This document shows positions 30,701 through 36,149 of a stretch of DNA of 64,000 nt, in pieces. Location: contig NZ_LT904908.1 in assembly GCF_900199705.1 (NCBI RefSeq), forward strand, positions 1,597,452-1,661,451, in the 5' to 3' direction. Positions within the stretch are counted from its first letter, which is position 1. The number at the start of each line of letters is the position of its first letter. The DNA comes from Collinsella provencensis. GTDB taxonomy: Bacteria; Actinomycetota; Coriobacteriia; Coriobacteriales; Coriobacteriaceae. Position numbers and translations under genes: made by a program. Under the pieces are notes generated by a model. It did no database searches. It saw only the letters and a program-made list of their open reading frames with translations, and was not told the DNA's origin.

Positions 30701-30776
<76 letters not shown>

Positions 30777-34328: not shown

Positions 34329-34362
34329 ACGCCCCTGGTTCATTTGAACTGGGGGCGTTTTT
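34329..34362 (+). terminator. Terminator after the RGG-repeat gene
   Basis: ACGCCCCTGGTTCA and TGAACTGGGGGCGT form a 14-bp stem with a 2-nt loop, followed by TTTTT. Confidence 0.9.
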
Positions 34363-34438
34363 GTATGGATTGGTGTCGTTGCGTAGTTCATTTTGTGTTG
34401 GTCATAAGGATTACGGTCACCCGGAGAGTCATTGTAAA

Positions 34439-34521
34439 TTGAACTCAATACTGTGCTAGACTACAAAAATGAACTTAAGGTTCAAAGCAATATCAGAGTT
34501 TGCAATTGAAATTGAACTTAG
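34439..34521 (+). promoter_or_regulatory. Promoter and operators of the HTH-aminotransferase gene
   Basis: -35 TTGAAC (34439-34444), 17-bp spacer, -10 TACAAA (34462-34467). The element TGAACTTAAGGTTCA (34470-34484) is a perfect TGAAC-N5-GTTCA inverted repeat across the expected transcription start. Related half-sites ATTGAACT occur at 34438 and 34511. The arrangement fits autorepression by the gene's own HTH domain (inference). Confidence 0.6.
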
Positions 34522-34532
34522 GAGATTGAGCA

Positions 34533-36149
34533 ATGCAACAGGTCTTTTCCAATCGCCTTAAACAGGCAATGGAACAAAAGGGCTTCAAGCAAGCCGATCT
34601 CATTCAAGAAGCCGGTTCCCGAGGAAAGAAGCTTGGAAAAAGCCAGGTCAGCCAGTATGTGAGCGGAAAGACCGTCCCTCGTCCGGCAGTTGCTGAATTG
34701 CTTGCCGACATCCTTGGGGTCGAGCTTCCGTGGCTCATGGGTGATGCATGGGTCGTTGAACATGGAGCATCGGGAGATGGCACCGGCATTGAGCAGGCAT
34801 GTGCTCAGGCGGGGGAGACGAGTTCAACCGCCACACACGCCGTCGAACGAGCCACGGCGCGGCCTGCCGCCGCTTCTCCTTTGTCCATCAGCAATACCCC
34901 CACCGAAAGGAACTCAAACATGACCACGCCCGTTCGCACATTTAAGAAGTCCTCTAAACTCGATAACGTTCTCTATGACGTTCGCGGCCCCGTACTCGAC
35001 GAGGCGAATCGCCTCGAGGCCGAAGGCGCTCATATCCTCAAGCTCAATATTGGTAACCCGGCGCCGTTCGGCTTCCGCACCCCCTTCGAGGTCATTCAGG
35101 ACATGCGCGATCAGCTGCCCGATTGTGAGGGATATTCCGACTCGCGCGGTCTGTTCTCGGCTCGCAAGGCAATCATGCAGTATTCGCAGATCAAGAACCT
35201 GCCCAATGTGAGCATGGACGGCATTTATACAGGCAATGGCGTGTCCGAGCTCATCAACCTCTGCATGCAGGCGCTTCTCGACAACGGCGATGAGATTCTG
35301 ATTCCCAGCCCGGACTATCCGCTCTGGACGGCGTGCGCGACGCTTTCGGGCGGTACGCCGGTGCATTATCGTTGCGATGAGCAGGCGGAATGGAACCCTG
35401 ATCTGGCGGATATCGAGGCCAAGATCACGCCTCGTACCAAGGCGATCGTCATCATCAACCCGAATAACCCCACGGGTGCGGTGTATGCGCGCGAGATTCT
35501 CGAGGGAATCGTTAAGATTGCCCGCAAGCATCAGCTGATGATTTTCTCTGACGAGATTTACGACCGCCTGTGCATGGACGATGCCGAGCACATCTCCATT
35601 GCGAGCCTCGCTCCTGACCTGTTCTGCGTGACGTTCTCTGGCTTGTCGAAGTCACATATGATTGCCGGCTATCGTATTGGCTGGATGGTCATTTCGGGCA
35701 ACAAGAAGCTCGGCGAAGACTTCATGTACGGCGTGAACATGCTATCCAACATGCGCCTGTGCTCCAACGTGCCAGCGCAGTCCATCGTACAAACGGCGTT
35801 GGGTGGACATCAGTCGGTCAAGGATTATGTGGTGCCAGGCGGTCGCGTGTACGAGCAGCGCAACTACGTGTACGAGGCGCTTAACGCCATCGACGGCATC
35901 ACGGCGGTTAAGCCCAAGGCGGCGTTCTACATCTTCCCCAAGATGGACATCAAGAAGTTCAATATTCACGATGATGAGCAATTTGCGCTCGATTTGCTGC
36001 ACCAGAAGGGCATTCTCATCACGCGCGGCGGTGGCTTTAATTGGCCTGAGCCCGACCACTTCCGTATCGTGTATCTGCCGCGCATGGAGGTCCTGCGCGA
36101 GTCGATGGAAGATCTTGCCGAGTTCTTTGCGACGTATCGCCAGGCATAG
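34533..36149 (+). CDS. XRE-type HTH fused to an AlaA-like aminotransferase
   Basis: A 538-residue fusion. Residues 1-70 form an XRE HTH (FSNRLKQAMEQKGFKQADLIQEAG, LGKSQVSQYVSGKTVPRPA). A 60-residue low-complexity linker leads to a complete class I aminotransferase closely resembling AlaA, the glutamate-pyruvate transaminase: LNIGNPAPFGF, YTGNGVSELI, IINPNNPTGAVY, FSDEIYDRL and the PLP-lysine motif GLSKSHMIAGYRIGWM. An internal ATG at 34920 behind AAAGGA could make the enzyme alone. MocR regulators fuse a GntR-type domain to an aminotransferase; here the HTH is a different fold. It likely links alanine or PLP status to transcription (inference). Confidence 0.88.
   Translation: MQQVFSNRLKQAMEQKGFKQADLIQEAGSRGKKLGKSQVSQYVSGKTVPRPAVAELLADILGVELPWLMGDAWVVEHGASGDGTGIEQACAQAGETSSTATHAVERATARPAAASPLSISNTPTERNSNMTTPVRTFKKSSKLDNVLYDVRGPVLDEANRLEAEGAHILKLNIGNPAPFGFRTPFEVIQDMRDQLPDCEGYSDSRGLFSARKAIMQYSQIKNLPNVSMDGIYTGNGVSELINLCMQALLDNGDEILIPSPDYPLWTACATLSGGTPVHYRCDEQAEWNPDLADIEAKITPRTKAIVIINPNNPTGAVYAREILEGIVKIARKHQLMIFSDEIYDRLCMDDAEHISIASLAPDLFCVTFSGLSKSHMIAGYRIGWMVISGNKKLGEDFMYGVNMLSNMRLCSNVPAQSIVQTALGGHQSVKDYVVPGGRVYEQRNYVYEALNAIDGITAVKPKAAFYIFPKMDIKKFNIHDDEQFALDLLHQKGILITRGGGFNWPEPDHFRIVYLPRMEVLRESMEDLAEFFATYRQA

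Follow-up and report, generated by a model that had tools for sequence, protein, structure and literature searches.

A Cro/CI-type helix-turn-helix domain fused to an AlaA-type aminotransferase: a probable autoregulated enzyme with a phased half-site array at its own promoter

Metabolic enzyme and repressor are united in one polypeptide in trigger enzymes, or enzyme-repressors, such as PutA, BirA and NadR. In MocR proteins, an aminotransferase-like domain is coupled to one that binds DNA (PMC5320631). In the phage repressor TP901-1 CI, a dimer binds two half-sites (AGTTCA/TGAACT) with helix-turn-helix (HTH) domains carried on flexible linkers, and the OL operator reads AGTTCATGAAACGTGAACT (PMC4941734). 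We analysed a stretch of 64,000 nucleotides from Collinsella provencensis (hereafter the window, in whose numbering all positions are given) and found a gene that resembles each of these systems in part. Our search of open-access papers returned no description of an XRE/CI-AlaA regulator.

The gene lies on the forward strand of the window (34533..36149), in a genome of 1.74 Mb. It encodes 538 amino acids and is preceded by the Shine-Dalgarno sequence AGGAGA (34520..34525, +). The open reading frame list, Pfam and a structure-database match agree on its architecture. Pfam places HTH_3 at residues 9-68 (34557..34736, +; 34.2 bits, cut-off 23) and the class I/II aminotransferase domain Aminotran_1_2 at residues 167-516 (35031..36080, +; E 3e-54). 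This confirmed the original prediction that an HTH is joined to an aminotransferase. The AlphaFold model is confident for the HTH (pLDDT ~96) and has several weak stretches in the aminotransferase fold. The linker between the two, residues 73-130 (34749..34922, +), is predicted to be disordered (pLDDT < 50) and varies in sequence and length among relatives.

Among solved structures, repeat artefacts apart, the HTH is closest to the N-terminal domain of TP901-1 CI (3zhm, E 8e-8); BurrH, which supplied the top PDB matches, was rejected as such an artefact. The fusion HTH and TP901-1 CI have KSxxSQYV in common, and the probable recognition helix spans residues 36-44 (34638-34664, +). TGAACT occurs both in the half-site of the fusion gene, described below, and in that of the TP901-1 operator. 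HTH similarity and TGAACT half-sites together place the domain with the Cro/CI proteins of the TP901-1 CI type. The likeness extends to the flexible linker and to the presence of several operator sites. The fusion differs in being a cellular gene, in carrying an aminotransferase where CI has its C-terminal oligomerization domain, and in half-sites of varying orientation and spacing with 10.5-bp phasing. As in TP901-1 CI, additional residues precede the recognition helix in two Lachnospiraceae homologues (L187, L199), and two other fused proteins have diverged recognition helices (L121, KLAKGQLSDYV; L182, KLSKSQMSQYL). Since L182 has no consensus half-site upstream, HTH and operator may be changing together there. 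The three best 'phage' matches of the HTH were rejected as phage genes, being unverified faecal contigs. Two of these, MT839381.1 (L221) and MT839198.1 (L222), both labelled 'Bacteriophage sp.', contain the complete fusion gene and probably derive from bacteria.

The enzyme part is closest among solved structures to E. coli AlaA (4cvq, E 1e-169), with 59-60% identity across 400 columns. Residues N312, D340, Y343, K373, R381 and R511 are invariant in an alignment of 41 fused proteins, and we take them to be the catalytic residues typical of fold type I aminotransferases; K373, encoded at 35649-35651 (+), is the probable PLP lysine. With full-length similarity and the catalytic residues both present, we assign the enzyme part to the AlaA type. 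The best NCBIfam model is that for alanine aminotransferase, PRK08363, yet the match stays below the cut-off (338.6 of 534 bits). The aminotransferase part looks fully catalytic, and the conserved residue set bears out the earlier claim of a catalytically complete enzyme. E. coli AlaA shares the catalytic residues but lacks an HTH, whereas in the fusion regulation appears to be built into the enzyme.

The original prediction also drew a parallel with MocR regulators. Like MocR/GabR proteins, the fusion consists of a DNA-binding domain, a linker and a C-terminal fold type I aminotransferase domain, is associated with both direct and inverted repeats, and probably regulates itself. It is not a MocR because it lacks the N-terminal GntR-type winged HTH: Pfam found no GntR domain in the protein, and found HTH_3 and related Cro/CI-type HTH models instead. 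The fusion further differs in its AlaA-type domain with all catalytic residues, its conserved internal start and the lack of a visible separate target operon. The parallel thus stands for function and fails for the DNA-binding domain, whose nearest relative is TP901-1 CI, and for the aminotransferase, which looks fully catalytic.

Next to the promoter, the half-site scan found four sites. One lies at 34384..34394 (AAAATGAACTA, -), one at 34436..34446 (AAATTGAACTC, +), one at 34466..34476 (AAAATGAACTT, +) and one, an exact consensus AAATTGAACTT that adjoins the ribosome-binding site, at 34509..34519 (+). Their centres are 52, 30 and 43 bp apart and surround an extended -10-like element, TGCTAGACT (34454..34462, +), which was picked by eye; a strict sigma-70 scan found no promoter at the fusion gene. 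Just after this element comes the palindrome TGAACTTAAGGTTCA (34470-34484), the sole exact match to its pattern in the genome. The AAAATGAACTT site forms its left arm, and its right arm is a poor half-site with 4 of 11 mismatches. The upstream gene has a terminator-like hairpin (34329-34358) whose stem carries GGTTCATTTGAACT, with TGAAC-type half-sites; these are probably due to chance, though they lie beside the array.

We then compared the promoters of relatives, counting as a half-site any match to AAATTGAACTT in either orientation with at most two mismatches and an obligatory TGAAC. The invariance of TGAAC among the sites is therefore by construction, and the test lies in the counts against shuffled sequences and unfused genes. 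Across 94 distinct fused genes there was a mean of 3.6 half-sites per promoter, compared to 0.03 in dinucleotide shuffles, and only 1 of 25 unfused genes had a half-site, a single weak match. Within Lachnospiraceae, 17 of 21 fused genes had half-sites, as against 0 of 17 unfused ones, the fused set including three repeats (L185 = L057, L193 = L022, L208 = L186). Of the four fused exceptions, three carry sites at a greater distance upstream, and the other, L182, is the one with the altered HTH. Unfused genes nested among fused relatives lack arrays. The spacing of half-sites follows a 10.5-bp period in each of the four orientation classes: for 67 non-redundant promoters the weighted R was 0.436, compared to 0.10 +/- 0.03 for random placing (0/2000), and a spectrum covering 4 to 25 bp peaks at 10.5. 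In relatives, one site is often centred 16-18 bp downstream of the -10-like element and another 14-16 or 24-27 bp upstream, and the placing of the -10 element relative to the half-sites in the window is common among them. The palindrome was rejected as a conserved operator unit, as relatives keep the asymmetric half-site AAATTGAACTT and not the palindrome. As far as comparison tells, the operator consists of phased asymmetric half-sites arrayed in either orientation, and the palindrome is incidental. Of the predicted operator palindromes, then, TGAACTTAAGGTTCA and the further half-sites are real, while the conserved unit is the half-site.

To what extent might the protein act beyond its own gene? 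The genome holds four AATTGAACT sites, two of which lie at the fusion promoter. Another is a single site at 30709-30717 (-), upstream of a secE-like open reading frame, and a further single match of this type lies at G000:C3:546395. One genome of the same order, G164, has 20 scattered AATTGAACT sites against 1 for the control pattern, among the matches listed. Such sites speak for a wider regulon of which autoregulation is only one part, and in G164 this is possible, although no close cluster was found there among the matches listed. Close site pairs, in contrast, occur only at the fusion gene's own promoter, both in the C. provencensis genome and, among the matches listed, in 22 relatives, and a scan for the 11-mer with two mismatches returned numbers near chance (261 matches compared to 214 for a control pattern, among the matches listed). 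We therefore regard a wider regulon as unlikely, if the best of the alternatives. Lrp is a common separate regulator of alanine metabolism, as in E. coli. An AsnC/Lrp effector domain was not found in the genome, whereas 11 of 14 control genomes have one, so Lrp seems to be absent as a separate alanine regulator.

Taken together, we consider the gene product likely to be an alanine aminotransferase under its own control, made as a full-length repressor-enzyme and as an enzyme-only isoform. The arrays, their phasing and the confinement of clusters to the gene's own promoter lend strong comparative support to the predicted core idea of an enzyme that represses itself. We infer DNA binding, dimerization, repression rather than activation and the two products, as well as a response of binding to an effector (alanine, pyruvate, glutamate or the PLP/PMP state). 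The full-length protein would dimerize via its AlaA domain, in place of the oligomerization domain of phage CI, and each flexibly tethered HTH would recognise a single AAATTGAACTT half-site. With several half-sites lying along one face of the helix, to either side of the -10 element and into the ribosome-binding region, the protein would close its own promoter through oligomers or loops and so hold the enzyme at a set level. The same array could instead serve activation of the gene, or have another role than repression, and many arrays do hold sites well upstream of the -10 element. Sites typically lie 16-18 bp downstream of its start and at the ribosome-binding site, however, positions that normally block transcription, and the HTH has its closest solved relative in a phage repressor; we judge such a role improbable.

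The second product would come from a start within the linker. A Shine-Dalgarno sequence, AAAGGAA (34906..34912, +), stands 7 nt upstream of an ATG at 34920, encoding Met130, from which an aminotransferase without HTH would be translated (34920..36149, +). In nearly every fused gene an ATG, rarely a GTG, with a Shine-Dalgarno sequence is found just before a conserved KKSSKLDNV, while the linker is otherwise variable; L020 and L124 are among the few fused genes that lack it. A Shine-Dalgarno duplex of -5 kcal/mol or better was present at 92% of internal starts compared to 18% of in-frame ATGs within the enzyme part, a comparison in which the internal start is the best of the nearby candidates at each locus, a choice that favours the signal somewhat. 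The sequence is mostly AGG AGC in the family of the window and GGA GG in Lachnospiraceae, where the signal is repeated. A control with synonymous codons gave a weaker result (mean -3.5 vs -7.5; p <= 0.05 in 50 of 92 loci).

Unfused homologues begin at this same place, with a Shine-Dalgarno sequence, and the internal start may thus be the ancestral one. This would also fit an unused relic of the unfused gene, an explanation to which we give about as little credence as to activation. Start and Shine-Dalgarno sequence persist through variable linkers in differing codon registers, the rare arginine codon AGG is enriched (47 of 54 arginine codons at the internal start compared to 155 of 2568, or 6%, elsewhere), and in the sublineage of the window both have moved together, four codons further upstream. 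Such retention speaks for use. Conservation within otherwise variable linkers strongly supports the internal start at 34920, proposed at the outset as a source of the enzyme alone. In the autoregulated enzyme that we favour, the cell would contain catalytic enzyme next to repressor-enzyme, and repression would be weakened by dimers that combine the two. That the aminotransferase part is only a ligand-binding domain, making the protein a regulator and not an enzyme, is suggested by the domain pairing of MocR (PMC5320631) and by the mix of direct and inverted repeats in many MocR operators and here, but is very improbable given the invariant catalytic residues, the close similarity to the enzyme AlaA, a conserved internal start that would yield enzyme without the DNA-binding part, and the lack of another target cluster in the gene's own genome or, among the matches listed, in 22 relatives.

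We also assessed how the fusion is distributed. In the genus Collinsella, 42 of 43 genomes have a match, and in all of them the open frame could accommodate the fusion. Loci from named C. vaginalis and C. tanakaei strains resemble those of the genomes listed under this genus. The enzyme is present in 124 of 246 genomes of the class. Within the same order, nearly all enzyme-bearing genomes have frames of fusion length (at least 485 aa); the other orders of the class contain few carriers of the enzyme, with frames shorter than the fusion, and elsewhere in Actinomycetota homologues align across the enzyme part only. Of 200 genomes of Lachnospiraceae, the family to which L057 belongs, 54 carry the enzyme, under half of them in fused form as judged by frame length. 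Among Coriobacteriales with the enzyme the fusion is the rule, and it is also common in Lachnospiraceae. In a tree built on the enzyme part the fused forms group together, with 10 changes compared to 40 in shuffles; the labels of L069 (masked) and L121 (fused, with a diverged HTH) are technical. A single gain, transfer between phyla and several losses fit this tree, a history with moderate support. No separate upstream HTH gene was seen at the unfused relatives examined. One genome, G561, has both a fused copy (L186/L208), with four half-sites, and an apparently unfused copy (L207).

The fusion would thus resemble PutA, BirA and NadR in being metabolic enzyme and, presumably, repressor in one polypeptide. 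It differs from them in enzyme class and HTH, in being apparently purely autogenous and in its probable second product without HTH. More tentatively, with chances a little short of even, the AlaA dimer makes alanine while its state with respect to substrate or cofactor determines how the HTHs are arranged on the phased array, and subunits from the internal start titrate repression. If this is true, one gene acts as sensor, enzyme, repressor and repressor-antagonist in a complete circuit, which is maintained throughout an order of Actinomycetota as well as in Lachnospiraceae. The natural pairs of fused and unfused genes, even within G561, make the mechanism directly testable. In conclusion, the fusion is a widespread candidate regulatory enzyme of gut bacteria with an explicit DNA site. 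It would extend PLP-dependent regulation past MocR to a protein that is apparently still catalytic, would show a phage-CI-type HTH serving metabolic control, and would provide an autoregulatory circuit contained in one gene, probably with a second isoform.
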